Assembly (NCBI GenBank): GCA_016292045.1 | Contig: JAEEZX010000013.1 | Span: forward strand, 1 to 64,000 | Reading direction: 5' to 3' | DNA: 64,000 bases | Source of the DNA: Bacteroidaceae bacterium | GTDB lineage: Bacteria > Bacteroidota > Bacteroidia > Bacteroidales > Bacteroidaceae | Shown: positions 15,219-40,567 of the stretch, one piece after another | How the letters are laid out: every line of letters starts with the position of its first letter | How positions within the stretch are numbered: the stretch's first letter is position 1 | Made by a program: the position numbers and the translations under genes | Notes under the pieces: generated by a model | What the model was told of the DNA's origin: nothing | Seen by the model: only the letters and a program-made list of their open reading frames with translations | Databases searched by the model: none

Positions 15219-18200
15219 TTACTTGACAATCTGGCCAGCAGTGTTGAACTTCTTGCCGTTGCTGTAGATAACGAGCCTGTTGTTCTCCAAATACTTGCCG
15301 TCGGCCTTACCAAACTTCTCGGTAGAAGTGCTGAGCGTGCTCACACCTGTTGGCTCTGGCAATCCGTCAGTAGCGTAGAAGAGCTGGATGCCATCGCAGA
15401 TGAACCAGCTGGTGCCAGCATTCTGGCGGCGGAAGAAACCTATAGAGGTGTATGCACCGCCTTCAGGAACCTGGAACTGAATATATTTTCCGCCCAGGCC
15501 GTCATAACCGAATCCTGTCTTTGCGGCCATCCAGTCGGCGAATGTGTCCATATTCTGCGGCATGTACCATGTCACGCCATTGATATTCTCAATGAAGATG
15601 TCGTGCCTGTATGTGCCTTGGAGCAAATCCGTGGTGAGTGCAACATACTTGGAGTTGCAGGTGACACCGGCAATTGTGTCGACACTCTCTGTGCCGCGAC
15701 CGATGTTGGCATACATATAGGTAGCGTAATCGATAGCATAGCTGTCGTCACCGGTGATAGCATCCTTCGTGTTGTCGCGTCGATCCATGCCCCAGCTTAC
15801 GAATGTGTAGTAGCCGGCGGGCAACCACAGAGGCTGATAAGTGTCGAAGGTGTTTCCGTACTGCTCAGCATCGCTGTCCTCTGTGCGGATACCCACGTTG
15901 CCCCAGTTGTACCATGAAGAACCGGCCCACTGCTCATCGGTATCGAAGTTCGGGTTGCGGAGCTGTGAAGTAACGTCTTCTGGAGTATCAACTCTGCCTG
16001 TGCCGGCAACCTGAATGTAAATACTGCCGAGCTCCATACGAATAGTCTTCATAAATTCGTAGTATGCATCGTATGTGCTGGTGTAAGCACCGTCGGCAGC
16101 CAAAGAGGGATTGAATTCAGGATTCTCAAGCAATATCCTGTTGAGGATAGTAGGAGCTGCGCCATAAGTTGCTTCATCGTAAATCAGCAGGTTCTCCATA
16201 TCCTCGTCGGTGAGGCTTATCATAGAACCGGTCTCAAGGCCGCTCATGAGGCCGAATACATCGTAAACGTTCTGTGCGAACCTCTTGTACTTCTCGTCGC
16301 CGTCAAAGGCAGTAATCAGTTCCTGGAGTTCTCCTTGGGCGGTGGTGAAATTGTCTATAGCCTCTTTGTAAACGTCCAGCTTGCTAATCAAGTAGGATAC
16401 GTCGTCGTAAGCATCCTTGTAGTCCTGGTAGGTGGCCAGATCGTTGTTGATAAGAGCTTGATACTCAGGGATTCTCTTAGCGATGGTATCGTTCAGGAAG
16501 ACTTCCTGCAGGCCGCTGCCCTCGATAAGTAGCGGGTTGTCCTGAAGGGCAGAGAGCTTCTCTATCAACTGCAGTCTCATGGCGTTGCGGTCTTCGCCGA
16601 GGAGTTCCAGTTTGAATGCACCCCACAGACACCAGCTGCCGTAGGGCATAGCCTGAGTGCTGCGCAGGCCGATAGTCAGCGTACCGGTGCCGTCGCCGTC
16701 GTCTGTTACCTCGCCATAGACCTTCATCGGGTAGCGACCGGCGGAGAAAGCGATGGAAGCACCTTCCATACTGTTCGGAATCAGATATTCGTTCTCGTAG
16801 ATGGCATCAGCACCGTACTTGCCGTTGACGGTCAGGTCGGTGGAGTTCTGGATGCGGGTGCGGATGTCTTCGTCCTCGTTTTCGTTGTAGGTCCAGATTT
16901 TCTCCCTGTCGGCATCTGTCATACCTGCGAAGTCTCCGTTCCAGAAGTAGCAGTTCGTGCCGTTCTTGGCGATGGTGCCAAGCCATTTCTTCTCATCCTC
17001 ATTCCATTCTAGGTCGTATGTGATGGGATCTGCTGCGAGGTTCTGAATCTTGTTGCTTATGCTACCCATATAGAGTTCCACGAGTACGGGAGTCTCAGCA
17101 TTCCACGTGCCTGCGGGACGGAAGAATGCATTGATGGAGATTGAGTAAAGACCGGCAGGAGCCTTCTCCACAGTTTGCCAGAGGTTGAATGTGTCTCCGT
17201 CCTTGTTTGCGAATGCCTCAGCTACAGGCCAGCCGCTCAGACCTCCGTAGAGAGTCCAGTTGCCCATCGTATGGGTGTTTTTCCAACCGCCTCCGTTGGG
17301 ATCGGTGAAGTCGTAGTTGTTGAGCAGGAAGCTGACATCCATACCGGGCTTCACGACAGTCTTCTTCACATCGCCCATCAGACCGTCGAGGAAGATGCTT
17401 TCCTCTACAATCGCAACGTCGTTCATAGAGAGTGTCTGCATGATGTAGTTGTAGCAGCCGTTCTGGAAGGTGTATGTGCCGGAAGTGGAGCCGGGACCGT
17501 ATGCAGAAGCAGCACCGTTAATGTAGGCGTTGAGGGCATTCATTGCCACGCTGGGATTGTACTTGCCTTCCTGGCTTGCAATCTGGGTGTAGAGTTTCTT
17601 AGCCTTTTCTGCAGCCACGGTATATGTCTTCCATGTCTCGATGCTGGCCTTCCATGCGTTCTCTGCTTCAGTGAAAACCGCGTACTTGGTGTCGACATCG
17701 TCGAAGCTGGCATCGCCCGGCTGGAGGGCTTCAACCCAGTTCTTGAATGTGCTGTAAGCGTTGTCGTAAGCATCCTTTGTGTCAGCAGAACCAACACCCT
17801 CGATGGGGTATTTGATCTCGGCAAGAAGTTCCTGAGCGTACTCGGGCACATTGCTGTAAGACATCAGCTGGATGTTGTCGAAGATTACCCAATAGTTGCC
17901 GTTTGCAGCATAGAAACCCACTTCGAGGTCAGTCTCCTCTTTCAGTTCGAAGCGCACGTTGTCGGCCTTATATTTGCCGTTGGCGAAACTCTCGCCGGAT
18001 GTGTACATGCTGTTCTCGCTGCCGTCATGCTTGGGCAGGATGGACTTTGCGATGGGATTTGCGCTCGGACCCACGTACACGTAAGGATAATCAGTGTCGC
18101 TACCTGCATCGTGACGATAGAAGCCCTGTGCAGACAGCTGGTAGCGGCCTGCTGGCAGATTCTTCACCACCTGATAGATGGCGAAGGGAGAGCGGTAGGA

Positions 18201-18935
18201 CTCGGCACACGTGTTGTTGTTGAACGTGTTGTTGCCCGTGTTGCCTCGTGTGGTGCCCAGCGTATAGTTGGTGCAGTTGCTGCTCACGGTCCAGTCGTCT
18301 GTGCTCTGATTGCGGCAGAAGTCAGGGTTCTTGATGAGGAAGTTGTAACTAACGTTGTAGGTTTGAGCCTTGTTGACCATATAGTCGAGAGCCTCCTGAT
18401 ATGTCATCACCCGGAAGAGACATGCATCGGTGAGTTCCTCGCTGAATGTCAGCTCGTAGCCCTTGCGGTAGCCGTTAACATTGCTCTTTGCCAGATATCC
18501 GTGTTTCGTCTCCACCCATTCCTCGTTGGTGTAAGCCCACTGGCTGGGGCAGAAGAAAGCAAAGATGCCGCCACCCATATTCTCAATGGTCCAGATGCCG
18601 TCTACTGTCTTTGTCGTGCCGGCTTCCTCGTCATCCTTCACGGGCATTGTGCCGGCATTGTCGGTGTAGAGGTTGGTCCCCAGATTCTTGTTGGTCACAG
18701 CCACAAGAGTGTTTTTGATGTTGTAGCCTGAACCGGTCGTGCCGGGCACAAACTGGAAGATGCCGGCATCGGTGCTGACAGCACCCTGTGTGCCCCAGTA
18801 GTTCTGAGCACCGAGGAACATGTCGGTCTCTACGTTCAGGATGTAATAGTCCGTGTTGGGTTCAATCACATCCACAGCGCGAGTGCTCAATGTGGTGAGC
18901 AACACAACTACCAGAAGAAAAAGTCTGTTCTTCAT
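15219..18935 (-). CDS. Large secreted multidomain surface protein (paralog 1) with lectin/CBM-like modules and T9SS-type tail
   Basis: 1238 aa, signal peptide MKNRLFLLVVVLLTTLSTRA; repeated 'LPAGRYQLSAQGFYR', 'APAGLYSISINAFFRP', 'LPAGYYTFVSWGMDRR' modules; tail GKYLENNRLVIYSNGKKFNTAGQIVK. Confidence 0.8.
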   Translation of the reverse strand: MKNRLFLLVVVLLTTLSTRAVDVIEPNTDYYILNVETDMFLGAQNYWGTQGAVSTDAGIFQFVPGTTGSGYNIKNTLVAVTNKNLGTNLYTDNAGTMPVKDDEEAGTTKTVDGIWTIENMGGGIFAFFCPSQWAYTNEEWVETKHGYLAKSNVNGYRKGYELTFSEELTDACLFRVMTYQEALDYMVNKAQTYNVSYNFLIKNPDFCRNQSTDDWTVSSNCTNYTLGTTRGNTGNNTFNNNTCAESYRSPFAIYQVVKNLPAGRYQLSAQGFYRHDAGSDTDYPYVYVGPSANPIAKSILPKHDGSENSMYTSGESFANGKYKADNVRFELKEETDLEVGFYAANGNYWVIFDNIQLMSYSNVPEYAQELLAEIKYPIEGVGSADTKDAYDNAYSTFKNWVEALQPGDASFDDVDTKYAVFTEAENAWKASIETWKTYTVAAEKAKKLYTQIASQEGKYNPSVAMNALNAYINGAASAYGPGSTSGTYTFQNGCYNYIMQTLSMNDVAIVEESIFLDGLMGDVKKTVVKPGMDVSFLLNNYDFTDPNGGGWKNTHTMGNWTLYGGLSGWPVAEAFANKDGDTFNLWQTVEKAPAGLYSISINAFFRPAGTWNAETPVLVELYMGSISNKIQNLAADPITYDLEWNEDEKKWLGTIAKNGTNCYFWNGDFAGMTDADREKIWTYNENEDEDIRTRIQNSTDLTVNGKYGADAIYENEYLIPNSMEGASIAFSAGRYPMKVYGEVTDDGDGTGTLTIGLRSTQAMPYGSWCLWGAFKLELLGEDRNAMRLQLIEKLSALQDNPLLIEGSGLQEVFLNDTIAKRIPEYQALINNDLATYQDYKDAYDDVSYLISKLDVYKEAIDNFTTAQGELQELITAFDGDEKYKRFAQNVYDVFGLMSGLETGSMISLTDEDMENLLIYDEATYGAAPTILNRILLENPEFNPSLAADGAYTSTYDAYYEFMKTIRMELGSIYIQVAGTGRVDTPEDVTSQLRNPNFDTDEQWAGSSWYNWGNVGIRTEDSDAEQYGNTFDTYQPLWLPAGYYTFVSWGMDRRDNTKDAITGDDSYAIDYATYMYANIGRGTESVDTIAGVTCNSKYVALTTDLLQGTYRHDIFIENINGVTWYMPQNMDTFADWMAAKTGFGYDGLGGKYIQFQVPEGGAYTSIGFFRRQNAGTSWFICDGIQLFYATDGLPEPTGVSTLSTSTEKFGKADGKYLENNRLVIYSNGKKFNTAGQIVK

Positions 18936-21109: not shown

Positions 21110-24100
21110 TTACTTGACAATCTGGCCAGCAGCGTTGAACTTCTTGCCGTTGCTGTAGATGACGAGTCTGTCGTTCTCCAGATACTTGCCGTCAGCCTTA
21201 CCCTTCTCAACGAATGCGGGCAGTGTGCTTACGCCAGTGGGCTCGGGGAAGCCGTCTGCAGCATAGAAGAGCTGAATCTGATCGCAGATGAACCAGCTGG
21301 TGCCACCAAGCTGCCAACGATAGAAGCCGATAGAGGTGTATGCACCGCCTTCGGGAACATAGAACTGGATACGTGTGCCACCGATGTTGAGCTCCTTATC
21401 TCTGCGAGCCTGCATCCAAGCGTTGAACTGATCCATAGTGTTGGGAGTGTACCAACCAGTTACGATGTCGCTGGAAATGCCACCTGCACCCTCTGTGATA
21501 TCCTCCTGCTTAGCCACATAGCGGGCGTTAGCAGTAGGTGTAGCGATGGTGTCAGCCTCCTGCATCTTCACATACATGTATGTAGCGTAGGCGATATCCT
21601 CGTCCTCAACACCGTTGATGGCAGTTTCCCAGCTGTTACGACGGTCCATAGCCCAGCTGATGAAGGTGTAGTAACCCTCGGGCAAGAACAGAGGCTGGTA
21701 AGCGTCGATTGTCTTCTGATACCATTCGCCGCTGCCGTATGCACCGGTGTTGATAGCGTTACATTCTGTACCCTTCCACTGAGTGTCCTCTATGTAGTCG
21801 GGGTTGATGAGCTGATCGGTAACCTCTTCAGGATCGTCAGCAGTACCTGTGCCCTGAACCTTGATATAGATGCTACCCATCTTGAGGCGAATCTCCTCCA
21901 TTACGCTGTTGTAGAAGTCATATGTGCTGGTGTAAGCACCGTCGGCTGCAGCAGAGGGATCGAAGGACTCGTCCATCATCATCTCTCTGTCGAGAATCTC
22001 AGGTGCTGAGCCGTATTCCTGTTCATCGTAAACAAGCAGGTTGTCCATATCCTCGTTGGTGAGGCTTATCATAGAGCCGGTCTCAAGAGCGCTCATGAGG
22101 TCGAATACGTCGTAAACGTTCTGTGCGAACTGCTTAACCTTCTCATCACCGTCGAAGTTGGCAATCAGCTCAGTGAGCTCAGCCTGAGTGGTGTAGAAGT
22201 TGTTGATTGCAGTCTGGTAAACGTCCAACTTAGCAATCAGGTAAACTGCTTCATCGTAAGCTTTCTTGTAGTCCTGATATGTAGCCATATCGTTGTTGAT
22301 AAGAGCTTGATACTCAGGGATTCTCTTATTGACGGTGTCGTTCAGGAACACTTCCTGCAGACCGCTGCCTTCGAGAAGGAGCGGGTTGGCCTCAATAGCA
22401 GAAACCTTTTCAATCAGCTGAGCGCGCATAGCGTTGCGGTCCTCGCCGAGGAGCTGGAGACGGAAGTTAGACCACAGAGCCCAGTGCATATGGCTGGTAG
22501 CGCGGATACCGATGCGCAGTGTACCTACACCGTCACCTTCGTCGGGCACCTCACCGTAAACAGTCATCGGGTAGCGACCTGCGGAGAATGCAACAGATGC
22601 GCCGGTCATGCCGTTGGGCACGAGCTTGCTGGTGCCGCTGCCGTCGTCCCAGCTGTAGTCAGTCATGTGGCTACCGCCGATGTGGGTAGAGTTGGCCATT
22701 AAGTTCTGAACAGCGGGATCCTCGTTCTCATTGTACTTCCAAAGATCACTTGGGTCGCTCTGCCAGTAGAGCACGTTGGTACCGTTCTTAGCGATAGTAC
22801 CCTGCCAGATGCCGGTGTTGTCGTCGTAAACGAGGTCGTTCTCAACGGGATCCTTAGCAATGTGCTGGATGGGGCTGGATACAGTACCCATGTAGATTTC
22901 TACGGGCACCTTCTCCTCACCGGTCCAAGAACCGTTGTAGCTAGGACGATAGAATGCGTTTACAGAGATAGAGTAGAGACCTGCGGGAGCGTTCTCCACA
23001 ATCTGGTAGAAGTCGAAGCTATTCTTGTCGTAAGCCTCAGCGCAAGGCCATCCGCTCAGACCGCCGTGAGGATCGGTGATACCGCTCACGCCGTTCCAAC
23101 CGGCACCACCAGCCTCGGTGAAGTCGGGGTTAACAAGCAGGAAGCTGACATCCATACCGGGCTGTACAACGTCCTTCTTAACGTCGTTCATCAGGCCGTT
23201 AACGAATGCAACCTCTTCTGCGATCTGCTCGTCGTTCATAGTACGATGCTGCATGATGTAGTTGTAGCAGCCGTAAACGAAGATGTATGAGCCGGAAGAA
23301 GAGCCGGGACCGTAAGCGGAAGCAGCGCCGTTAACATAAGCGTTCAGGGCGTTCATTGATACAGCGGGCTTGTACTTGCCTTCCTGGCTTGCAATCTGAG
23401 TGTAGAGCTTCTTGGCCTTGTCGGATACTGTAACATAGCTGCTCCAAGATGCAACGCTGGCCTTCCAAGCGTTCTCTGCCAAAACGAAGTCAGCATATCT
23501 CTGGTCAACTTCGTCGAAAGTGGCGTCACCCTGCTGCAGGCCTTCAACCCAAAGCTTGAATGAGCTGTAAGCGTTGTCGTAAGCAGTCCATGCGTCAGCA
23601 GAACCAACACCCTCGATGGGGAATTTGATGCTGTTGAGGATCTCCCTAGCGTACTCAGGTACGTTGCTGTAAGACATCAACTGGATGTTATCGAAGATAA
23701 CCCAAGTGTTCTTGTCGTTCTTCAAACGGAAACCAACCTCGAGGTCGTTAACGGGCTCGGTCAGCTCGAAACGAACGGGGTCAATCTGATACAGACCGTT
23801 CTGGAAAGCGTTAGATGCTGCGCTCATGTCGTTCTCGCTGCCGGTGCGCAAGGGCAGAGCAACCTCGGTCTCGCCTGCGAATACAACGGGCTTCTCGTCT
23901 GTTGAACCATCGTCCTTACGATAGAAACCCTGAGCAGACAACTGGTAGCGACCTGCAGGCAGGTCCTTAATCACCTGAGAGATGGTGAAGGTAGAGTGCC
24001 AAGACTCTGCGCACTTGTTGTCGTTGGTACCACCGCTGAGGTTCTTGTTAGTACAGTCGGCGCTGACAGTCCAGTCGGCTGTGCTCTGGTTGCGGCAGAA

Positions 24101-24712
24101 GTCGGGGTTCTTGATGAGGAAGTTGAAGCTCACGTTGTTGCTCTGAGCCTTCTGCACCATGTAGGCAAGAGCCTCATCATAGGTCATCACGTAGAAGAGA
24201 CATGCGTCGGTGAGAGTCTCGCTGAACTCCAGGTTGTAGCCCTTCTTGAGGCCCTTGTTCTCGCTGCGAGCCAGATAGCCGTGCTTTTTCTCAACCCACT
24301 CGCCATCGTAAGACCACTCGCTAGTGCAGTGGAAAGCGAAGATACCACCGCCCTGATCCTCGATGGACCAGATGCCGTCGACGCTCTTTGTCGTGCCGGC
24401 CTCTTCATCGTCCTTCACGGTAGCCTTACCGTTGTTGTCGGTGTAGAGGTTGGTGCCGAGGTTCTTGTCGGCAACACTTACGAGGGTGTTAACAATGTTG
24501 TAACCCTCACCTGTGGAACCCTGAATGAACTGGAAGATACCGGCATCAGTACTGATACAACCGTTGGTACCCCAGTTGTTCTGGGCACCGAGGAACAGGT
24601 CTGTCTCTACATTCAAGATGTAGTAGTTCACACCTTCCTCAATGTTAGTTACAGCTCGTGAGCTCAATGTTGTGAGCAACACGACTGCCAAAAGAAGTAA
24701 TTTGTTCTTCAT
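21110..24712 (-). CDS. Large secreted multidomain surface protein (paralog 2) with lectin/CBM-like modules and T9SS-type tail
   Basis: 1200 aa; full-length similarity to 15219..18935; tail GKYLENDRLVIYSNGKKFNAAGQIVK. Confidence 0.8.
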   Translation of the reverse strand: MKNKLLLLAVVLLTTLSSRAVTNIEEGVNYYILNVETDLFLGAQNNWGTNGCISTDAGIFQFIQGSTGEGYNIVNTLVSVADKNLGTNLYTDNNGKATVKDDEEAGTTKSVDGIWSIEDQGGGIFAFHCTSEWSYDGEWVEKKHGYLARSENKGLKKGYNLEFSETLTDACLFYVMTYDEALAYMVQKAQSNNVSFNFLIKNPDFCRNQSTADWTVSADCTNKNLSGGTNDNKCAESWHSTFTISQVIKDLPAGRYQLSAQGFYRKDDGSTDEKPVVFAGETEVALPLRTGSENDMSAASNAFQNGLYQIDPVRFELTEPVNDLEVGFRLKNDKNTWVIFDNIQLMSYSNVPEYAREILNSIKFPIEGVGSADAWTAYDNAYSSFKLWVEGLQQGDATFDEVDQRYADFVLAENAWKASVASWSSYVTVSDKAKKLYTQIASQEGKYKPAVSMNALNAYVNGAASAYGPGSSSGSYIFVYGCYNYIMQHRTMNDEQIAEEVAFVNGLMNDVKKDVVQPGMDVSFLLVNPDFTEAGGAGWNGVSGITDPHGGLSGWPCAEAYDKNSFDFYQIVENAPAGLYSISVNAFYRPSYNGSWTGEEKVPVEIYMGTVSSPIQHIAKDPVENDLVYDDNTGIWQGTIAKNGTNVLYWQSDPSDLWKYNENEDPAVQNLMANSTHIGGSHMTDYSWDDGSGTSKLVPNGMTGASVAFSAGRYPMTVYGEVPDEGDGVGTLRIGIRATSHMHWALWSNFRLQLLGEDRNAMRAQLIEKVSAIEANPLLLEGSGLQEVFLNDTVNKRIPEYQALINNDMATYQDYKKAYDEAVYLIAKLDVYQTAINNFYTTQAELTELIANFDGDEKVKQFAQNVYDVFDLMSALETGSMISLTNEDMDNLLVYDEQEYGSAPEILDREMMMDESFDPSAAADGAYTSTYDFYNSVMEEIRLKMGSIYIKVQGTGTADDPEEVTDQLINPDYIEDTQWKGTECNAINTGAYGSGEWYQKTIDAYQPLFLPEGYYTFISWAMDRRNSWETAINGVEDEDIAYATYMYVKMQEADTIATPTANARYVAKQEDITEGAGGISSDIVTGWYTPNTMDQFNAWMQARRDKELNIGGTRIQFYVPEGGAYTSIGFYRWQLGGTSWFICDQIQLFYAADGFPEPTGVSTLPAFVEKGKADGKYLENDRLVIYSNGKKFNAAGQIVK

Positions 24713-25042: not shown

Positions 25043-25199
25043 GAAAATTTTGAAATACGGCGTATCTTTTTTTTATTTTTTTTTTACAAAAATGCATTTT
25101 TTTTTGTTTTTGAGTGAAAAAATTGAAAAAATGCCCGTTTAAGATTGAAAAACGGAAAACGATGAAACAAAATTATTTGCAGTTCTCGAAAATTTGTTG

Positions 25200-25207
25200 T
25201 ACATTTG
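25200..25207 (+). promoter_or_regulatory. -7 box TACATTTG for the GT2-DUF4922-SpoIID / aroB / GH43 operon
   Basis: TACATTTG 26 nt upstream of ATG at 25233. Confidence 0.55.
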
Positions 25208-25232: not shown

Positions 25233-28200
25233 ATGACAGATATCTTTTCCAACAATTCGCTTCTTCTGGAAGACGAAAAGATAGAGGGAAAATACGTGCT
25301 GGACGGTTCGCTGGGCTCAACACATACGCTGAGGAGCGTTGCCAGGACGGGCAGCGCACCTTATATTCTGCTGCATACCAAGCCCGGCACAGTGGAGCTG
25401 GGCTATCACGCCCTGCATCGCTGGGAGACGCTGATGGAAGACAGCGGGGCTCCCTGGAGCTATGCCGACTATCGCACGGAGGAACCTGTGCGACTGATTG
25501 ACTATCAGGTGGGTTCGGTGAGGGACGACTTCCAGATGGGAGCCCTCGTGATGGTGAGACGCGATGTGTTGCAGGAATACGTGGAGCAGGAGACGCACGT
25601 CTACCAGTTTGCCGCGCTCTACGACCTGCGTCTTTTCTGTTCGCGCCGGCGTCTGCCGCTGCACATAGGGGAGTTTCTCTACAGGATGGACGAGACGGAC
25701 ACAAGGGCGAGCGGTGTGAAGCAGTTCGACTACGTGGATCCGCGCAACAGGGCGGCACAGGTGGAGATGGAAAGGGCCTGCACCCGCCATCTGCGTGCCA
25801 TCAACGCCTATCTGCACGGCGACGAAGTGGATGTGGTGAAGCTGGAGGAGGGAGAGTTTCCCGTGGAGGCAACGGTGGTGATACCGGTGAGAAACCGCGT
25901 GCGCACCATTCGCGACGCCATAGAAAGCGTGCTCAGACAGAAAGCTCCGTTCAAGTACAATCTGATGGTGGTGGACAACCACTCGGACGACGGCACGACG
26001 GAGGAAATAGACAAATTCCAGGACGAACGGCTGATACACATCATACCGGATCGCGACGATCTGGGCATCGGAGGATGCTGGAACCGGGCTGTGCACGACG
26101 AGAGGGTGGGACGCTTTGTGGTGCAGCTCGACAGCGACGACCTCTACAGCGGCGAGGATACGCTGGCGAGGATAGTGAACCAGTTCTACGAGGACGGAGC
26201 AGCAATGGTGGTGGGTTCGTACCGCATCTGCAACTTCCAGCTGGAGACGCTGCCGCCAGGACTCATCGACCATCGCGAGTGGACGCAGCAGAACGGACGC
26301 AACAATGCGCTGCGAATCAACGGACTGGGAGCGCCGAGAGCCTTCTTCACTCCCGTGCTGCGCGAGATACAGATACCAAATACATCCTACGGCGAGGACT
26401 ATGCCCTCGGACTGATGATATCGCGCCGCTACCGCATCGGACGTATCTACGACGAGCTGTATCTCTGCCGCCGCTGGGAGGGTAATTCCGACGCTGCGCT
26501 CTCGCAGGAAAAGCAGAATATAAACAATTTATATAAGGATAGCCTCCGCAGTCGCGAGATAGAAGCCCGTCAGGCTCTCAACCGTCTGTGGCAGCATGAA
26601 GTGAGCCGCGAGGAGGTGGAGGCATTCTTCCGTCAGGAAGTGGAGCAATGGCAGTTGGCTGCGACGAACTACAGGAATCTGGAGCAGCAGGTGCAGTCGC
26701 GCGCTCTGCCGATAGGAGAGACGGATATGACGGTGCAATGGAATCCCTCGCGCATCGTATCGACGGCGGCGAAGGTGGATGCCAAGAGCATCGAGGAGCG
26801 CCCGTGCTTCCTGTGCGACCACAACAGACCGAAGGAGCAGCACGCCCTCAAGATGGAGAGGCACTACCAGATATTGGTGAATCCCTTCCCCATACTGCCC
26901 CGCCATTTCACCATCCCGTCGCGCCGACACACCCCGCAGAGCATCTGGGCGCACTTCAGCACGATGAGACGTATGGCATGGACGATGCCGGAGGACATAG
27001 TATTCTACAACGGAGCACAGTGCGGAGCCAGCTGTCCCGACCACATGCATCTGCAGGCGGGAAGCAGGGGCGTGATGCCGCTGGAGCGCGACTGGAAGAT
27101 ATGGGAGAACCACCTGCGGAGACTCTTCCCCCTCACGGGAGCGGGAGCCGCACAGATGCAGGAAGCCGGCAATACGAGCGACCGATGCGGCCTCTATCTG
27201 CTGGAGGACTGGGTGAGCCCTGTATTCGTGATACGAAGTTTGCCCACAGAACCCGATTCGCTGCTGTGCCAGCGCATATACAAGGCGCTGCCCGTAGTGG
27301 AAGGCGAAGCGGAGCCGAGAATGAACCTCGTCACCTGGCGTCAGGAAGGCGGTGTGGGACGTGAGGACGAAATAGTGACACTCATCTTCCCAAGAAAGAA
27401 GCACCGTCCGAGCTGCTATCCCGACATCATGGTGAGTCCCGGAGCCCTCGATATGGGCGGTCTCATCATCACTCCGCGCGAAGAGGACTTCAAGGTGATG
27501 ACGCCCGAACTGGCAGCTGACATACTGCGGGAGGTGACGCTGTCGGAGGAGGAACTGCAACCCGTCATCGAGGCTGTGACCGACAAGGAGCCGGCAGAGA
27601 AGGATGCAGCGAAGCCGTCGGTGCAGACCGACGACCTGCCGCTGAAGGAGGAAATGGAAGGAGCAAAGGTGACGGTGGGCATCAAGACGGCCCCATCGCT
27701 GCGTTTCAATATCAACGGGGAATACACAGCCAAGGGACAGACCGTGACGGGCGAACAGGTGGTGGTGTGCGAAGAGGGAAGTATCCGATGGAACGGGCAG
27801 CTTTACCGCAATCTGTCGTTCTCTCCGGTGACGGAGGATGCCACGTTCTCCATGTCGGATGTGACGATAGGTGTGAAGTTCCATTGGGAGAGACAGGAGA
27901 CGCAGACATTTCAGGGGAAACTGCGACTGGTGGTGGATGAGGAGAAGATAGTGGCCATCAACGAACTGCCGGTGGAGGACTATCTCGTGAGCGTCATATC
28001 GTCGGAGATGAAGGCGACGAGTTCGCTGGAATTCCTGAAGGCATCGGCTGTGATATCGCGCTCGTGGCTCTACGCTCAGATGGATCGTCGTCGTCATCAC
28101 AGCGATAGCGACCGTCCCGCGTTCTTCGCCTTCACAAAGACGAGTAAGGAATATATCCGATGGCACGACCGCGAGGAGCATACCATATTCGATGTGTGCG

Positions 28201-28916
28201 CCGATGACCATTGCCAGCGTTATCAGGGTGTGACGAGAGCGGCAAATCCCGCTGTGAAGGAAGCTGTGGAGGCGACGAAGGGTCAGGTGCTCGTATACAG
28301 AAAAGACGATGGAACCTTGGAAATTTGCGACGCCCGCTTCTCAAAATGCTGCGGCGGACGCACGGAGGAGTTCCAATACTGTTGGGAGAACATCAAGAAG
28401 CCGTATCTGCAAAGCGTGGAGGACCCCTGGTGCAACACACAGGACGAGAATATACTGAAGCAAGTGCTCAACGACTATGATATGGAGACACCGGACTTCT
28501 ACCGCTGGCAGGTAGTCCTGCAGCAGGAGGAACTTCACGACCTCTTGAAGGATCATCTCAAGGTGGAGTTCGGAGACATACTGGCTTTGGAACCTGTGGA
28601 GAGAGGTCCTGGCGGACATATTTCGAAACTCAAGATTGTGGGTTCGGAGAGAACGCTTATCATCGGCAAGGAACTGGAGATAAGGAAGGCGCTGTCGCCC
28701 ACACACCTGTATTCATCGGCATTCGACGCAACGCCCATCGACCTCTCGGGCAAGGAGAACGCGCCCGGCAAGGTGCCTGCCGCATTCCGTCTTGACGGAC
28801 GGGGATGGGGTCACGGCGTGGGACTTTGCCAGATAGGTGCTGCTGTGATGGGGCAGAATGGCAAGAATTATAAGGAAATACTGGAATTCTACTATAGGGG
28901 AGCAGAACTCGTATGA
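25233..28916 (+). CDS. Trifunctional fusion: GT2 glycosyltransferase - DUF4922 (HIT-like nucleotidyltransferase/phosphorylase) - SpoIID/LytB domain
   Basis: GT2: EATVVIPVRNRVRTIRDAIESVLRQ...VVQLDSDDLYSGEDTL; HIT-like: RPCFLCDHNRP...LVNPFPILPRHFTIP...CGASCPDHMHLQAGS; SpoIID: VISSEMKATSSLEFLKASAVISRSW...SKCCGGRTEEF...GRGWGHGVGLCQIGAAVMGQNG. Confidence 0.88.
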   Translation: MTDIFSNNSLLLEDEKIEGKYVLDGSLGSTHTLRSVARTGSAPYILLHTKPGTVELGYHALHRWETLMEDSGAPWSYADYRTEEPVRLIDYQVGSVRDDFQMGALVMVRRDVLQEYVEQETHVYQFAALYDLRLFCSRRRLPLHIGEFLYRMDETDTRASGVKQFDYVDPRNRAAQVEMERACTRHLRAINAYLHGDEVDVVKLEEGEFPVEATVVIPVRNRVRTIRDAIESVLRQKAPFKYNLMVVDNHSDDGTTEEIDKFQDERLIHIIPDRDDLGIGGCWNRAVHDERVGRFVVQLDSDDLYSGEDTLARIVNQFYEDGAAMVVGSYRICNFQLETLPPGLIDHREWTQQNGRNNALRINGLGAPRAFFTPVLREIQIPNTSYGEDYALGLMISRRYRIGRIYDELYLCRRWEGNSDAALSQEKQNINNLYKDSLRSREIEARQALNRLWQHEVSREEVEAFFRQEVEQWQLAATNYRNLEQQVQSRALPIGETDMTVQWNPSRIVSTAAKVDAKSIEERPCFLCDHNRPKEQHALKMERHYQILVNPFPILPRHFTIPSRRHTPQSIWAHFSTMRRMAWTMPEDIVFYNGAQCGASCPDHMHLQAGSRGVMPLERDWKIWENHLRRLFPLTGAGAAQMQEAGNTSDRCGLYLLEDWVSPVFVIRSLPTEPDSLLCQRIYKALPVVEGEAEPRMNLVTWRQEGGVGREDEIVTLIFPRKKHRPSCYPDIMVSPGALDMGGLIITPREEDFKVMTPELAADILREVTLSEEELQPVIEAVTDKEPAEKDAAKPSVQTDDLPLKEEMEGAKVTVGIKTAPSLRFNINGEYTAKGQTVTGEQVVVCEEGSIRWNGQLYRNLSFSPVTEDATFSMSDVTIGVKFHWERQETQTFQGKLRLVVDEEKIVAINELPVEDYLVSVISSEMKATSSLEFLKASAVISRSWLYAQMDRRRHHSDSDRPAFFAFTKTSKEYIRWHDREEHTIFDVCADDHCQRYQGVTRAANPAVKEAVEATKGQVLVYRKDDGTLEICDARFSKCCGGRTEEFQYCWENIKKPYLQSVEDPWCNTQDENILKQVLNDYDMETPDFYRWQVVLQQEELHDLLKDHLKVEFGDILALEPVERGPGGHISKLKIVGSERTLIIGKELEIRKALSPTHLYSSAFDATPIDLSGKENAPGKVPAAFRLDGRGWGHGVGLCQIGAAVMGQNGKNYKEILEFYYRGAELV

Positions 28917-29962
28917 AACAGAATATTGTCTTTACCGCAACGCTCGGAAATGCCCTCGAGAAGGCCGTCGGGGGAGTGAGGCACGACCGTCTGTTCTGTC
29001 TCACCGACGAGACGACGCTGCAGCTCTGCTGGCCTCTGGTGAAGGATGTGCCTGCAATGCGGGACGCCCGGATGATAACCATCAAGGCCGGTGACGAGCA
29101 CAAGACGCTGGAGTCGCTCTCAAGCGTGTGGAGCGCGCTGCAGCAGGGAGGTGCCACGAGACGTTCGCTGCTGGTGAATCTTGGCGGCGGGATGGTGACA
29201 GATCTCGGAGGCTTTGCAGCCAGTACGTTTAAAAGAGGTATGGCATATATCAATGTGCCGACGACGCTGCTCAGTCAGGTGGATGCCTCGGTCGGAGGCA
29301 AGACGGGAGTGAACTTCGGAGGGCTGAAGAATGAAATAGGCGTATTCAGCGAAGCCGATACAGTAATAATAGCAACGGACTTCCTTAGGAGTCTCGATGA
29401 GGAGAACCTGTTGTCGGGCTACGCCGAAATGCTGAAGCACGGTCTGCTTGATACGGAGGCTCATTGGGCATCGCTGATGCGGGAACCGTTCTCGCTCTTT
29501 GAGGGCGAAGAGGGACGCGCACTGATAGAAAGGAGTGTTGCGGTGAAGGAACGCATCGTGACGGAAGATCCGACGGAGAAAGGGCTGCGCAAAGCACTGA
29601 ATCTGGGGCACACCGTGGGACACGCCCTCGAGAGTCTGGCGCTGAAGAGGCAGCAGCCCGTGCTGCACGGATACGCTGTGGCGTGGGGACTGGTGAGCGA
29701 GCTCTTCCTTTCCAATATCAAGGAGCAGTTCCCGACGGACAGACTGAGACAGATGACCCGCTATATCTTCGACCACTACGGCAAGATGGCAATCACGTGC
29801 GACGACTATCCCGTGCTGTTGGAACTGATGAGTCACGACAAGAAGAACGAGGCGGGCGTTATCAATTTCACTTTACTCGGTGGAATCGGTGATATACGTA
29901 TCAATCGTCAGGCGACAAAAGAAGAAATATACGAATCCTTAGACTTCTATAGAGAATCATGA
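28913..29962 (+). CDS. aroB: 3-dehydroquinate synthase
   Basis: LVNLGGGMVTDLGGFAASTFKRGMAYINVPTTLLSQVDASVGGKTGVNFGGLKNEIG; overlaps upstream fusion by 4 nt. Confidence 0.93.
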   Translation: MKQNIVFTATLGNALEKAVGGVRHDRLFCLTDETTLQLCWPLVKDVPAMRDARMITIKAGDEHKTLESLSSVWSALQQGGATRRSLLVNLGGGMVTDLGGFAASTFKRGMAYINVPTTLLSQVDASVGGKTGVNFGGLKNEIGVFSEADTVIIATDFLRSLDEENLLSGYAEMLKHGLLDTEAHWASLMREPFSLFEGEEGRALIERSVAVKERIVTEDPTEKGLRKALNLGHTVGHALESLALKRQQPVLHGYAVAWGLVSELFLSNIKEQFPTDRLRQMTRYIFDHYGKMAITCDDYPVLLELMSHDKKNEAGVINFTLLGGIGDIRINRQATKEEIYESLDFYRES

Positions 29963-30969
29963 AAAAGACATTGTATTGCGCGCTGTTGGCGCTCTCGTGC
30001 ATCATGAATGCAGAGGCAAAGAAAATTGAGTTGGGGAAGAACCCCGTCCTGCCGGAGTTTCATGCCGACCCCGAAGTGTTGTACTCACAGAAGACGGGGT
30101 GCTATTACATATACTCCACCACCGATGGTGCGAGAGGTTGGGGCGGATACTATTTCACTGTGTTCTCCTCGAAGGACCTGAAGCACTGGTGCCACAAAGG
30201 TATTATGCTGGATCTGGCAACCGACCAGGTGCCCTGGGCTGTGGGAAATGCGTGGGCTCCCTGTATAGAAGAGGTGAAACAGGCGGACGGAAGTTACAAA
30301 TACTATTTCTACTACAGCGGACACGACAAAGAACGCAACCGCAAGAGTATCGGTGTGGCGATAGCAGACGATCCCGAGGGACCGTTCACAGATTTGGGTT
30401 TCCCTATTGTAACGGAACTGCCGGAAGGACAGCGCGGTGGACAGCAGATTGACGTAGACGTATTCCGCGACCCGGTGAGCGGTAAACATTATCTCTACTG
30501 GGGCAACGGCTATATGGCAGGTGCCGAACTGGAAGACAATATGCTGACGGTGAAGAAGGAGACTGTGACACTGATGACTCCGCAGGGCGGTACGTTGCAG
30601 GATTACGCATATAGAGAAGCCCCGTATGTGTTCTACCGCAAGGGAACCTACTACTTCATGTGGAGTGTTGATGATACAGGCTCTCCTAACTATCACGTGG
30701 CATACGGTACGAGCAAATCACCGCTTGGTCCCATAGAAGTGGCGAAAGACCCTGTGATACTGATACAGGATCCGTCGAAGGAAATCTATGGTACTGCGCA
30801 TAATAGCGTGCTGCAGATTCCCGGTAAGGACGAATGGTATATCGTTTACCACCGTATTAACAAGAACTATATGCACAGGGATATGGGACCGGGATTCCAC
30901 AGGGAAACGTGCATCGATAGGATGTACTTCAATGAAGACGGAACAATACAAAAAGTGAAGGTGCATTAA
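29959..30969 (+). CDS. Secreted family 43 glycoside hydrolase
   Basis: Signal peptide; NPVLPEFHADPEVLYSQKTGCYYIYSTTDG; WAPCIEEV; YREAPYVFYRKGTYYFMWS; HNSVLQIPGKDEWYIVYHR. Confidence 0.88.
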   Translation: MKKTLYCALLALSCIMNAEAKKIELGKNPVLPEFHADPEVLYSQKTGCYYIYSTTDGARGWGGYYFTVFSSKDLKHWCHKGIMLDLATDQVPWAVGNAWAPCIEEVKQADGSYKYYFYYSGHDKERNRKSIGVAIADDPEGPFTDLGFPIVTELPEGQRGGQQIDVDVFRDPVSGKHYLYWGNGYMAGAELEDNMLTVKKETVTLMTPQGGTLQDYAYREAPYVFYRKGTYYFMWSVDDTGSPNYHVAYGTSKSPLGPIEVAKDPVILIQDPSKEIYGTAHNSVLQIPGKDEWYIVYHRINKNYMHRDMGPGFHRETCIDRMYFNEDGTIQKVKVH

Positions 30970-36066: not shown

Positions 36067-38979
36067 TTGTATGTGATGCGCGCACGTTGGGAGATACTCT
36101 TTATACTGGTGGTGATGCAGCTACTGGTGGGTTGCTCGGTGAAAAGGAATACGCCGATTAACCGGCGTTGGCATGCTTTCATAGCACATTACAACACGCT
36201 TTATAACGGCCAGGTCGCATTCGCAGAGGGTGAGGAGGCGCAGACAAAAGGTAATAAGGACGATTATACGCGTCTTCTGCCGATATATGAGTGCCAAAAC
36301 AAGGCGACACAGAGCTTGGGTTCTGGTAATTATGACACATCGATAGAAAAAGCGCAGAAGGCTATCAAGCGTCATAGTATAAAGAAAAAACCCGTTGCTG
36401 GTAATCGCAGCAGACGATTGACTCCGGAGGAAAAGGAGTTCCGTGCAAGAAAGGAATTCAATCCCTATCTGTGGCGTGCTTGGTTTATGATGGCAGAAGC
36501 ACAGTTCCGCAAAGGAGAATTCATAGAGGCAAGTGCAACATGGAATTATATTTTACGCCTGTATGCAACACAACCACGTATCACTCAGGTGGCTAGAGCC
36601 AGATTGGCGCGTTGTTATGTGGCACTGGAATGGCCTTATGATGCAGAAGATGCATTAAGGCGTATGGGACGTGACAGTCTTACTTTCAAGGCGACAAAGG
36701 AAAGAATTAATACGGAGGCAGCTTATTATCTTCTTACTGAACAATATGAGGAGGCTGTTCCGCGATTGGAGCATGTGGTTAAGCATACGAAGGGAAGAAT
36801 ACGACGGGCACGCTTGAATTTCCTGCTTGGTCAATTGTATAATCAACAAGGGGAAAAGCAGAAAGCTTACAAGGCATTGTCAAGGGTGATTGCCGCGAAT
36901 CCGCCGTACGAGATGTCGTTTGCTGCCCGTGTGTTGCAGACGGAGGTAATAGGCAAGGACAAGTATAAGCAGATGATACGTCGTCTCAGGCGTATGGCAA
37001 AAGATGAAAATAATGCGAATTATCTGGATCAAATATACTATGCAATAGGTAATATATATCTGTCTTTACCGGATACGGCAAACTGTCTGGCATCATGGGA
37101 GAAAGGTGTAAAAGAAAGTACGGGGGGCGGAGTGGCTAAGGCAACGTTGCTCCTGAAGTTGTCTGATATGTACTGGGAGAAGGAGGACTACATTAATGCT
37201 GCACGTACTTACCAGGAATGTGCTTCCATACTGTCGAAAGAATTAAAAGAGTATAAACAGGTGGAAGAACGTGCCAAGGCTTTGCAACCATTAGCTCCAT
37301 ATCTGGAGACAGTAAAATTACAGGATAGTTTGCAGGCTTTGGCTAAATTGCCAGAGGCAGAATATCTGGCGGCGATAGACCGTGTAATAGAAGCACTCAA
37401 AAAGAAAGAAAAGGAAGAGGAGAAAAAACAGGCCCAGGCGGAGGACAGGGCAGAATCTCAGCAGCGCAGGCAGACGATGGCTGCAACGGCAGCTGCGCAA
37501 ACGAGAGTGTCGGGACAGACTGGAGCGTGGTATTTCTATAATCCTACGACGGTGAATGCAGGCAAAGCCGCTTTTAGAAAGCAGTGGGGTACACGAAAGA
37601 ATGAAGATAACTGGCGACGCACAAATAAAACAATATTGGGTGATAGTGAGTTTGAGGAGTATAATTATGCTTCAGAAGACTCCCTGAATGTGTTTTCTGA
37701 CAGTCTTTCCGTCGCAGGGGAGGAAGATATAGATCCGAATCAGGCTCTTAAGGATTCTTTGGCAAATGATCCGCATCAAAGGGAATATTATCTGCGACAA
37801 ATACCTTTTACGGAAGAGCAATTGGAGGCTTCGAATGCGCTGTTGTCAGATGGACTGTATGGGGCAGGTGTGCTGGAGCAGGAGAGTATAGAGAATTTTC
37901 CTTTAGCGAAACGCACCTTGGAACGATTGATAGTAACCTTCCCTAATTATGAAAAAATGGCGGATGTATACTATCATATGTTCTTGATATGTGGACGGCT
38001 GGGCTTGTGGTTTGAGGCTCAAGAATACAGACGGCACTTAATGGAGGAGTTTGCAGACAATGAGAATGCTATTACTCTGGCTAATCCTTTGTACGAGCAG
38101 ATTGCAAAAAACGGTAAGCATATGGAGGACTCCCTTTATCAGAAGAGCTTTGCCGACTATATGGCCAGCCGTTACGACGAGGTTGGACGTAGTTATGAGC
38201 AGCACATCAAAAATTTTCCGGAAGGGCCTCATCGTGCGCGTATGATGTTTGTACAAGCAATGAGTTTATTATATAGCGGCGACCGAAGTGGCTTTCTGAC
38301 ACTTTTGAAAGAGCTGATACAGAAGTATTCCCAAGAGGAGATAAGTGAATTAGCTGCCCAAATAGTGAAGGGCGTCCAAAATGGCAGACTACTTCAGGGA
38401 GGACCGTGGAATGCTTCCGGTTTGTGGGCACGACGCATGAGAGATTTCGGCGAAGGAGATACTACAGAGGTCAAGACGCTCATAGAGGAACGTATTGCCA
38501 ACTATGCGTTTGTATTGGCCTATGAAAAGGGTTCGCTTGACGAAGACCAATTACTTTTCGAGGTGGCACGATATAATTTCAGCAACTTTATGGTGCGTAA
38601 TTTCGAATTGGAGATATCTGATGTAAGCGGAATATCGATGTTGGTGGTGAAAGGGTTCTTGAGCTATGATGAGGTGCATGCCTACGCACAGCAGTTATAT
38701 GGCGACCGGCATATGGCAACAGTATTGGAGGGAATTCGTTCACTGCTTATCGCCGAGGATAATCTAAAACTTCTTGGTGTGGATTACAGTTTTGATGACT
38801 ACGAGACATTCTATGAAGAAAAGATACAGCCGATAAAAGTGACTGAAGAATTGAATATCGATGAGAATCAGGAAATAGAGGATATCGATCCCGAAGATGT
38901 GCCGGAGGGTTATGGTACAAATGGAGAAGATTCAACAGAAGAAGTAATAGAGGAAGATGACTTCCCGTTCGGTTTTTGA
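36067..38979 (+). CDS. porW: Type IX secretion system TPR lipoprotein PorW/SprE-like
   Basis: Lipobox LLVGCSVKRNTPINRRWHAFIAHYNTLYNG; TPR arrays; immediately upstream of porX. Confidence 0.83.
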   Translation: MYVMRARWEILFILVVMQLLVGCSVKRNTPINRRWHAFIAHYNTLYNGQVAFAEGEEAQTKGNKDDYTRLLPIYECQNKATQSLGSGNYDTSIEKAQKAIKRHSIKKKPVAGNRSRRLTPEEKEFRARKEFNPYLWRAWFMMAEAQFRKGEFIEASATWNYILRLYATQPRITQVARARLARCYVALEWPYDAEDALRRMGRDSLTFKATKERINTEAAYYLLTEQYEEAVPRLEHVVKHTKGRIRRARLNFLLGQLYNQQGEKQKAYKALSRVIAANPPYEMSFAARVLQTEVIGKDKYKQMIRRLRRMAKDENNANYLDQIYYAIGNIYLSLPDTANCLASWEKGVKESTGGGVAKATLLLKLSDMYWEKEDYINAARTYQECASILSKELKEYKQVEERAKALQPLAPYLETVKLQDSLQALAKLPEAEYLAAIDRVIEALKKKEKEEEKKQAQAEDRAESQQRRQTMAATAAAQTRVSGQTGAWYFYNPTTVNAGKAAFRKQWGTRKNEDNWRRTNKTILGDSEFEEYNYASEDSLNVFSDSLSVAGEEDIDPNQALKDSLANDPHQREYYLRQIPFTEEQLEASNALLSDGLYGAGVLEQESIENFPLAKRTLERLIVTFPNYEKMADVYYHMFLICGRLGLWFEAQEYRRHLMEEFADNENAITLANPLYEQIAKNGKHMEDSLYQKSFADYMASRYDEVGRSYEQHIKNFPEGPHRARMMFVQAMSLLYSGDRSGFLTLLKELIQKYSQEEISELAAQIVKGVQNGRLLQGGPWNASGLWARRMRDFGEGDTTEVKTLIEERIANYAFVLAYEKGSLDEDQLLFEVARYNFSNFMVRNFELEISDVSGISMLVVKGFLSYDEVHAYAQQLYGDRHMATVLEGIRSLLIAEDNLKLLGVDYSFDDYETFYEEKIQPIKVTEELNIDENQEIEDIDPEDVPEGYGTNGEDSTEEVIEEDDFPFGF

Positions 38980-38986
38980 TATATTT

Positions 38987-40567
38987 ATGGATTACAGACT
39001 GCTTTGGATTGACGACGAGATTGACCTTTTAAAAGGACATGTCATGTTTTTAGAGAAGAAGGGCTATGGAGTGGACACAGTGACAAATGGTTATGATGCC
39101 TTAGAGCAGTGCGACAAGGAAGATTACGACCTCGTGCTTTTGGATGAGAATATGCCGGGCCTGTCGGGACTGGAGACCTTGCAACGCATAAAAGAAACAC
39201 ATCCGGCTTTGCCCGTGGTGATGGTAACAAAGAGTGAAGAGGAAAATATCATGAATCAGGCTATAGGTAGTAAGATTGCCGACTATCTAATCAAACCGGT
39301 GAACCCAACTCAGATACTGTTATCGTTGAAGAAGAACATCCACCAGAAAAGGATACAGACCGAAGTGACAGACCAGAACTACCAGCAGAACTTTGGCAAG
39401 ATAAGTTTGGAAATGGGAGAAGCAAGGAGCATGGAGGACTGGAAAGAGATATACAAGAAACTGGTGTTTTGGGAACTGGAGCTTTCAGAGACAGACTCGC
39501 AGATGAGGGAAATGCTCTTGATGCAAAAAGGTGAGGCAAACACGGATTTTGCCAAGTTCATCAAAAAAAATTACGAACGTTGGATGAAAATACGTCTGAG
39601 CGGTGAACAGTATGAGCTTGGTGAGGATGTGCCCCTGATGTCACCGGATATATTCAAGACTCAGGTGTTCCCTGCATTAGACAGGGGGGAGAAGGTTACG
39701 TTGATGGTCATTGATAATTTCCGTTTCGACCAATGGCGTATGATACGCAGTGAGATTGCTGATATGTTTTCCATAGAAGAAAACTTGTATTGTAGCATAC
39801 TGCCCACGGCAACACAATATGCCCGTAATGCTATTTTCTCCGGACTCATGCCGGACAAAATAGAGAAAATGTTCCCGGAACTCTGGGTGGATGAAGATTC
39901 GGAGGAAGGCAAGAATCTCAATGAAGCCCCGTTGGTGCAAACTCAGCTGGATCGATACCGTCGCAAGAATACATTCTCGTATCATAAGGTGAACGATTCC
40001 GTTGGAGCAGAAAAACTGCTTGCACAACTGCCAAGTTTCAAACAATACGACCTAAATGTTATTGTGCTTAACTTTGTGGACATGCTTTCACATGCAAGAA
40101 CAGAGAACCGCATGGTGAAGGAACTTGCCAATAATGAAGCGGCATATCGTAGTATTACGCAGAGTTGGATGCGCCATTCGGCAGTAGGTGATTTGTTCCG
40201 TGCTCTAGCACAGAGCGACAGTCGTATAATACTCACCACGGATCATGGTAGTATTCGTACACAAAATCCGGTGCGTGTTGTGGGTGACAGGAATGTGAAT
40301 ACAAATTTGAGATATAAGTTAGGTAAAACACTTTCATACAATCCGAAAGAAGTATATGAGATAAAGGTGCCCCAGAATGTAGGATTACCTGCCCCCAATC
40401 TTTCCACCACATATATTTTTGCTACGGAACAAGATTTCTTTGCCTACCCGAATAATTATAACTATTATGTATCCTATTATAAAGACACGTTCCAACATGG
40501 TGGAATCTCCATGGAGGAAATGTTAATACCTCTTATAACGATGAAGAGAAAGGGTAGAGAAGGCTAA
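38987..40567 (+). CDS. porX: T9SS response regulator PorX (receiver + PglZ/alkaline phosphatase superfamily domain)
   Basis: LLWIDDEIDLLKGHVMFLEKKGY..VLLDENMPGLSGLETL..VMVTKSEEE; VIDNFRFDQWRMI...PTATQYARNAIFSGLMP...LTTDHGSI. Confidence 0.92.
   Translation: MDYRLLWIDDEIDLLKGHVMFLEKKGYGVDTVTNGYDALEQCDKEDYDLVLLDENMPGLSGLETLQRIKETHPALPVVMVTKSEEENIMNQAIGSKIADYLIKPVNPTQILLSLKKNIHQKRIQTEVTDQNYQQNFGKISLEMGEARSMEDWKEIYKKLVFWELELSETDSQMREMLLMQKGEANTDFAKFIKKNYERWMKIRLSGEQYELGEDVPLMSPDIFKTQVFPALDRGEKVTLMVIDNFRFDQWRMIRSEIADMFSIEENLYCSILPTATQYARNAIFSGLMPDKIEKMFPELWVDEDSEEGKNLNEAPLVQTQLDRYRRKNTFSYHKVNDSVGAEKLLAQLPSFKQYDLNVIVLNFVDMLSHARTENRMVKELANNEAAYRSITQSWMRHSAVGDLFRALAQSDSRIILTTDHGSIRTQNPVRVVGDRNVNTNLRYKLGKTLSYNPKEVYEIKVPQNVGLPAPNLSTTYIFATEQDFFAYPNNYNYYVSYYKDTFQHGGISMEEMLIPLITMKRKGREG

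Follow-up and report, generated by a model that had tools for sequence, protein, structure and literature searches.

A glycosyltransferase–DUF4922–SpoIID fusion protein of Bacteroidota with a probable role in cytosolic peptidoglycan recycling

A single gene in a 64,000-nucleotide stretch of DNA from a Bacteroidaceae bacterium (contig JAEEZX010000013.1 of assembly GCA_016292045.1, positions 1 to 64,000; hereafter the window) joins a two-domain glycosyltransferase (GT) part, a DUF4922 domain and a SpoIID/LytB domain in one polypeptide. On sequence evidence, we propose that this fusion protein is probably a cytosolic peptidoglycan-recycling enzyme with three activities, which would make AnmK, and often NagZ, dispensable. 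Its membership in a recycling module linked to the transporter AmpG, its cytosolic location and its tie to the loss of AnmK are well supported; its exact chemistry we infer.

The fused gene and its domains

The gene is a frame of 1227 codons, with an ATG at 25233, a stop codon at 28914-28916 and no internal stop (Table 1). The original prediction, made from the sequence alone, had described an uninterrupted frame of 1228 amino acids (aa); the frame stands, but the length is 1227 aa, as the higher figure counts the stop codon. In the GT part, residues 214-343 matched PF00535 Glycos_transf_2 (7e-18; 65.5 against a cut-off of 23.3), and the QLDSDD and SYGED motifs, which are the DxD and ED catalytic motifs of GT2 enzymes, were invariant in an alignment of 34 homologues; the fusion protein thus has both the family match and the two motifs that define the GT2 family. 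This agrees with the GT2 core reported originally, although a second, N-terminal GT-A-like domain had been overlooked. The structural model of the GT part (predicted local distance difference test, pLDDT, 90) contains two GT-A-like domains, and its best Foldseek match, over the whole model, was the two-domain chondroitin polymerase of E. coli K4 (2z86/2z87), followed by TarP and TarS. Alignment showed that, in the N-terminal domain, the initial strand and helix found in stand-alone homologues have degenerated or are missing.

The middle part matched PF16269 DUF4922 over residues 465-610 (4e-63; 212 bits against a cut-off of 23.6) and, as a borderline hit, PF19327 Ap4A_phos_N over residues 540-609 (23.5 against 23.1). 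Its model was confident (pLDDT 90), and yeast Apa2 (4i5t) was retrieved both by Foldseek (1.9e-11) and by hmmsearch (3.3e-6). Both histidines of the HxHxQ motif were invariant in 39 aligned homologues. The classical HIT triad HxHxHxx was not matched by this part, as its motif is HMHLQ, with Gln at the last position. By the HxHxQ motif and the modelled fold, the DUF4922 part is assigned to the GalT/Ap4A phosphorylase branch of the HIT superfamily. The HIT-like domain of the original prediction was therefore placed in the right superfamily, with its catalytic histidines kept on alignment, but it has the HxHxQ form and not the classical triad.

In the C-terminal part, PF08486 SpoIID matched residues 903-1022 (1.5e-25; 90.1 against a cut-off of 23) and TIGR02669 SpoIID_LytB matched residues 908-1226 (169.8 against 83.3), and an hmmsearch against structures retrieved 4rwr (6e-28), with an alignment also to 5i1t. 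The NCBIfam equivalog for stage II sporulation protein D (TIGR02870) stayed below its cut-off (132.8 against 234.75). The catalytic-type Glu925 within SSEM, the zinc-type residues H983, C989, H993 and C994, and the GWGHGVGLCQIGA loop were invariant in 22 divergent homologues. In characterized SpoIID proteins, the corresponding roles are held by the glutamates E88 (B. subtilis) and E101 (C. difficile) and by the C. difficile zinc site H134, C140, H145 and C146 (PMC6221140). Pfam, NCBIfam and hmmsearch thus agree on a complete SpoIID domain as the third part, and another identity for it, considered at the outset, was not borne out; the HIT-like, SSEM and GWGHGVGLCQIGA motifs lie where they had first been placed.

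Table 1. Features of the fused gene and its flanks in the window
Feature	Position	Strand	Basis
Bacteroidota-type candidate promoter: TTTG 25176-25179, 20 nt, TACATTTG (TAnnTTTG) 25200-25207	25176..25207	+	by eye
Single gene, 1227 aa, GT-A + GT2 + DUF4922 + SpoIID	25233..28916	+	ORF (open reading frame) call, Pfam, NCBIfam; one frame in relatives
N-terminal GT-A-like domain, residues 1-205	25233..25847	+	model, Foldseek, homologue alignment
GT2 catalytic domain, residues 212-460	25866..26612	+	Pfam PF00535; invariant columns in 34 homologues
GT2 motifs	GGCWN 26070-26084; QLDSDD 26124-26141; SYGED 26385-26399	+	read from sequence
DUF4922, predicted Ap4A-phosphorylase/GalT-like nucleotidyl-His domain, residues 461-790	26613..27602	+	Pfam PF16269, Foldseek, hmmsearch
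DUF4922 motifs	CFLC 26805-26816; PDHMHLQ 27036-27056	+	read from sequence
Full SpoIID/LytB domain, residues 807-1227	27651..28913	+	TIGR02669, hmmsearch 4rwr, invariant in 22 homologues
SpoIID motifs	SSEM 27999-28010; GWGHGVGLCQIGA 28803-28841	+	read from sequence
aroB 28913-29962; GH43 glycosidase 29959-30969	28913..30969	+	4-bp overlaps, downstream

The three-domain fusion is real. In a set of 61 relatives, it was found in nearly all genomes of the genus, at about 60-96% identity and mostly in a single frame, and a scan of named genomes listed about 80 loci with 53-96% identity, aligned across the entire protein or most of it. Isolates with the triple fusion were Paraprevotella xylaniphila, Prevotella ruminicola, Xylanibacter ruminicola and X. 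rodentium, and the same scan placed the window genome close to metagenome-assembled genomes (MAGs) of rumen Prevotellaceae/Bacteroidaceae. In a tree of the SpoIID part, the triple fusions formed one branch with support of 100/100, and a partial DUF4922-SpoIID fusion (locus L026) fell elsewhere; a GT-DUF4922 fusion was present in locus L084. An assembly artefact or a chance readthrough of separate genes, a risk named at the outset, might be read from genome G005 of the same genus, in which the gene is split over two overlapping frames; locus L034 likewise holds a near-copy in two overlapping frames. However, the recurrence of the same three-part frame in most genomes of the genus and in cultured Prevotella, Xylanibacter and Paraprevotella, on one well-supported branch, refutes this explanation, which we regard as vanishingly improbable. 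In part of the genus (L006, L008, L009, L011, L014 and L034), the gene 3' of the fusion encodes a protein of 319-357 aa that weakly, and below threshold, resembles an amino-acid ligase (LdmS-like) and might carry out a further step of recycling.

Cellular location and genomic company of the three parts

Simple hydropathy, with no dedicated predictor, revealed neither a hydrophobic N-terminus nor a long hydrophobic stretch in the fusion protein, in line with the first impression that no signal peptide is evident, and on the same basis no signal peptide was found in 11 stand-alone SpoIID homologues, which start straight at the domain (e.g. MEPKLRVGIL...). The signal peptide or membrane anchor usual for SpoIID/LytB proteins was therefore seen by hydropathy in none of them, and this SpoIID subfamily looks cytosolic. 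The original prediction had noted a topology problem, in that SpoIID domains usually work outside the cytoplasm whereas GT2 and HIT domains need cytosolic nucleotides. With no signal peptide on the stand-alone SpoIID proteins, this problem dissolves: the substrates are probably muropeptides that have entered the cytosol through AmpG. One way out that had been proposed, SpoIID action on cytosolic muropeptides or anhydro-sugars, is supported by the operon context and by the co-occurrence with AmpG described below.

In the rest of the phylum, the parts (together, the cassette) are encoded by three separate genes, often adjacent to each other and with ampG, namZ and murK/murQ-type genes downstream. 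In other Bacteroidales families, adjacent GT, DUF4922 and SpoIID genes were found at loci L021, L022 and L023, and partly at L024, L026 and L027, and genes for AmpG-family muropeptide transporters lie directly or nearly directly 3' of the unfused cassette. Genes for the exo-N-acetylmuramidase NamZ and a NagK/MurK-like kinase occur near unfused cassettes in Bacteroidales families and more widely. Within the same family as the window genome, the order at L066 is GT-DUF4922-SpoIID-AmpG-NamZ-...-HGSNAT-like-kinase-MurQ-like SIS protein. GT and DUF4922 form the tightest pair of the cassette. The same gene order has been described in Tannerella forsythia, where the co-transcribed genes Tanf_08345-08385 run xanthan lyase-gtf-gtf-lytB-ampG-ybbC (namZ)-murT-murK-murQ (PMC5388701). 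The T. forsythia ampG mutant cannot use N-acetylglucosamine-anhydro-N-acetylmuramic acid (GlcNAc-anhMurNAc) or GlcNAc-MurNAc, and its AmpG takes up both (PMC7670621).

Two further arrangements were observed. In one branch of the phylum, family f58, a GT4 glycosyltransferase gene stands beside the stand-alone SpoIID gene (L067 7817-8929, L071 2520-3623 and L074 6751-7884), and at L067 it is placed between SpoIID and DUF4922. At L065, L070, L073, L076 and L077, the GT-DUF4922 pair lies beside genes for a sigma-54 activator, STAS and SpoIIE-type regulators, possibly under shared regulatory control.

The co-occurrence of the cassette with recycling genes was evaluated in an even sample of 297 genomes of the phylum, the same draw being used for the DUF4922, SpoIID, AmpG and AnmK counts; GT and NagZ were counted in 80 chosen genomes (41 with the cassette and 39 controls). 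A strong DUF4922 match was present in 41/297 genomes. The SpoIID orthologue was found in 40 of these 41 and in 0/256 others, and the GT in 40/41 cassette genomes against 0/39 controls. All 41 cassette genomes had AmpG, compared with 56 of the 256 others; counted by family of the order, AmpG was present in 8/8 with the cassette and in 2/16 without it. AnmK was present in only 17 of the 41 cassette genomes (24 without) but in 55 of the 56 AmpG-positive genomes lacking the cassette (Fisher p ~8e-11, uncorrected for relatedness), and its loss was seen in 7/8 cassette families. A NagZ-like GH3 protein was missing in 12/41 cassette genomes, all 12 of them AnmK-less, and in 0/39 controls; because the search also picks up other GH3 proteins and no genome attained the curated score, presence was defined by the break that separates matches with E<1e-30 from all others. 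MurQ was missing in nine cassette genomes and three controls, and a MurU-like protein, in every case below the curated cut-off, was found in 12/12 MurQ-less genomes, including that of the window. NamZ was rejected as an obligate partner, being nearly universal in the order with or without the cassette and undetected in the window genome.

The window genome itself contains the cassette and AmpG; NamZ, AnmK, MurQ and a NagZ-like GH3 protein were not detected in it in searches of the genome set. At locus L177 (1250-3651, minus strand; contig C45 of G000), a second, divergent AmpG-like ORF of 395 aa, without a Pfam match, overlaps directly upstream of the AmpG gene of the window genome.

Proposed role and alternative explanations

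In the proposed role, AmpG would bring in GlcNAc-MurNAc or its anhydro form, GlcNAc-anhydroMurNAc, either bare or carrying peptide. In the cytosol, these fragments would be dismantled by the fused protein, so that AnmK, and then NagZ, would no longer be needed. With lower confidence, we suggest that the SpoIID part acts at the MurNAc end, where it would hydrolyse the 1,6-anhydro or the MurNAc glycosidic bond or carry out a transfer there, and that the GT and the nucleotidyl-His domain act at the GlcNAc end via a nucleotide sugar; for example, GlcNAc might be moved onto uridine diphosphate (UDP) and then released by phosphorolysis as GlcNAc-1-phosphate. In the window genome, the freed MurNAc would pass to the MurU-like uridylyltransferase and not to MurQ. 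One chlamydial SpoIID protein can use water as acceptor and gives non-anhydro (muramidase) products from denuded glycan (PMC6635528), which places hydrolysis at MurNAc within the chemistry of the SpoIID fold. The most specific version is a new cytosolic route in which SpoIID acts on the 1,6-anhydro bond of imported GlcNAc-anhydroMurNAc, the two-domain GT and the Ap4A-phosphorylase-like domain recover GlcNAc by way of a nucleotide sugar, with a phosphorolysis step, and a single polypeptide thus stands in for both NagZ and AnmK; we put this forward tentatively, as a possibility that deserves limited credence. The broader idea of the original prediction, a coupling of nucleotide-sugar chemistry to cell-wall glycan, is likely.

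Several points weigh against the proposed role. The activities of the three domains are predictions, and a GT running from a nucleoside diphosphate to the nucleotide sugar would be unusual in vivo. Although ampG adjoins the cassette in many relatives, it lies on a different contig from the fusion in the window genome; with NamZ undetected as well, the cassette-AmpG link in this genome is one of gene content only, and single absences are weak in this MAG, which is 91.8% complete. Since genomes are not independent samples, the p-values make the associations look stronger than they are, and the cassette and AnmK patterns partly track families. No match in the NagZ and MurU searches attained the curated cut-offs. 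Moreover, the loss of AnmK could reflect import of reducing GlcNAc-MurNAc and not of anhydro fragments.

This last point leads to the explanation that AnmK and NagZ were lost for another reason: bacteria with the cassette would make or import mainly reducing GlcNAc-MurNAc of the muramidase type and have no need of AnmK, and the cassette would do another job on these fragments. It is consistent with the uptake of GlcNAc-MurNAc besides the anhydro form by T. forsythia AmpG and with the non-anhydro products of the chlamydial SpoIID. However, GlcNAc-MurNAc would still require NagZ, and the nested loss of the NagZ-like GH3 is left unexplained unless the cassette replaces the NagZ step; we consider this explanation unlikely but deserving of attention. 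As it concerns only the cause of the AnmK loss, its probability overlaps with that of the recycling role. The cassette could also be envisaged as a biosynthetic module. Here the two-domain GT would draw on nucleotide sugars in the cytosol to assemble a small glycan or to tag muropeptides that have been imported. DUF4922 would keep the pool of nucleotide sugars in check by phosphorolysis, and the product would be trimmed or transferred by SpoIID. The resemblance of the GT model to the two-domain chondroitin polymerase and to the UDP-GlcNAc transferases TarP and TarS, the tight GT-DUF4922 pairing and the GT4 genes between SpoIID and DUF4922 (L067) or beside SpoIID in related loci fit such a module. 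Against it stand the strict association of the cassette with AmpG and the losses of AnmK and NagZ, which point to the breakdown of imported fragments, and the catabolic genes that neighbour it in many genomes (NamZ, MurK-like and MurQ-like); we regard a biosynthetic function as distinctly unlikely. Least probable among these functional alternatives is that SpoIID serves for binding or as a scaffold, without catalysis (as a muropeptide sensor or an amidase enhancer), leaving only the GT and DUF4922 as enzymes. LytB-type SpoIID proteins are called amidase enhancers, and the T. forsythia gene is so annotated, but the 22 divergent homologues all retain the catalytic-type Glu, the residues of the zinc site and the GWGHGVGLCQIGA loop, more conservation than binding would call for, and we give this idea little weight.

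Surroundings of the gene and comparison with known systems

The TACATTTG element of the candidate promoter ends 25 nt 5' of the ATG, and the TTTG-20-TACATTTG pattern follows the promoter consensus of Bacteroidota. The downstream aroB and GH43 genes are present only in the nearest relatives and therefore lie probably outside the module; they were rejected as functional partners on this ground. A defence system was rejected, as PADLOC gave no match. Further along the window, a 1238-aa ORF (15219-18935, minus strand) matched nothing in Pfam, NCBIfam or PADLOC, and a 1200-aa ORF (21110-24712, minus strand) had only a sub-threshold Pfam match, to DUF5013. A response regulator with a PglZ domain, of the PorX type, is encoded at 38957-40567 (plus strand), beside a 970-aa TPR protein (36067-38979); we take the PorX-type protein to be a regulator of type 9 secretion.

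The original prediction had presented the gene as a candidate for an undescribed system. As such this does not hold, as the unfused operon is published and co-transcribed in T. forsythia and many Prevotellaceae carry the fusion; the domain families and the unfused operon are known already. The literature searched gave no function for either T. forsythia gtf gene or for lytB, only two plant papers for DUF4922, and no work joining SpoIID with a glycosyltransferase, or AmpG with NamZ, in Bacteroidetes. Nor did it contain a report of the role of the three genes, their fusion, the phylum-wide tie to AmpG, the cytosolic SpoIID subfamily or the displacement of AnmK and NagZ. Little is known of peptidoglycan recycling outside Proteobacteria, even though Bacteroidota dominate in the gut and the rumen and muropeptides act as signals to hosts. 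The proposed role, if correct, would provide a second way of degrading AmpG-imported fragments and assign a function both to DUF4922 and to the SpoIID subfamily of the cytosol. It would also explain how many Bacteroidota with AmpG manage without AnmK or NagZ. For tests of the module, Prevotellaceae offer a ready-made reagent in the single-chain form.

Among known systems, the T. forsythia operon for muropeptide/MurNAc salvage is like the cassette, with GT, a second 'gtf', SpoIID/LytB and AmpG in the same set and order. The second 'gtf' is, by its position, probably the DUF4922 gene; we infer the orthology from operon order and annotation. There the three genes are separate; in the window they are fused into one, and its genome encodes AmpG elsewhere and has no detected NamZ, MurQ or AnmK. 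The SpoIID proteins of Bacillus and Clostridioides (4rwr, 5i1t, 5txu) share with the fusion the domain, the catalytic Glu and the C. difficile zinc-site residues; unlike them, the fusion has no membrane anchor or signal peptide, is joined to nucleotide-sugar enzymes and scores below the sporulation cut-off. DUF4922 has the fold and HxHxQ motif of yeast Apa2 (4i5t, 4i5v, 4i5w) and of the GalT/GDP-hexose phosphorylase branch, at 15-17% identity, and its CFLC and HR motifs, both invariant, are its own. The fusion shares GT-A folds and the DxD/ED motifs with E. coli K4 chondroitin polymerase (K4CP), TarP and TarS, and K4CP also has two GT-A domains, but the GT of the window is tied to DUF4922 and AmpG and has no known polymer product. 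Finally, the NagZ-AnmK-MurQ and AmgK-MurU routes likewise handle AmpG-imported muropeptides; unlike them, the cassette occurs where AnmK and NagZ are often missing.

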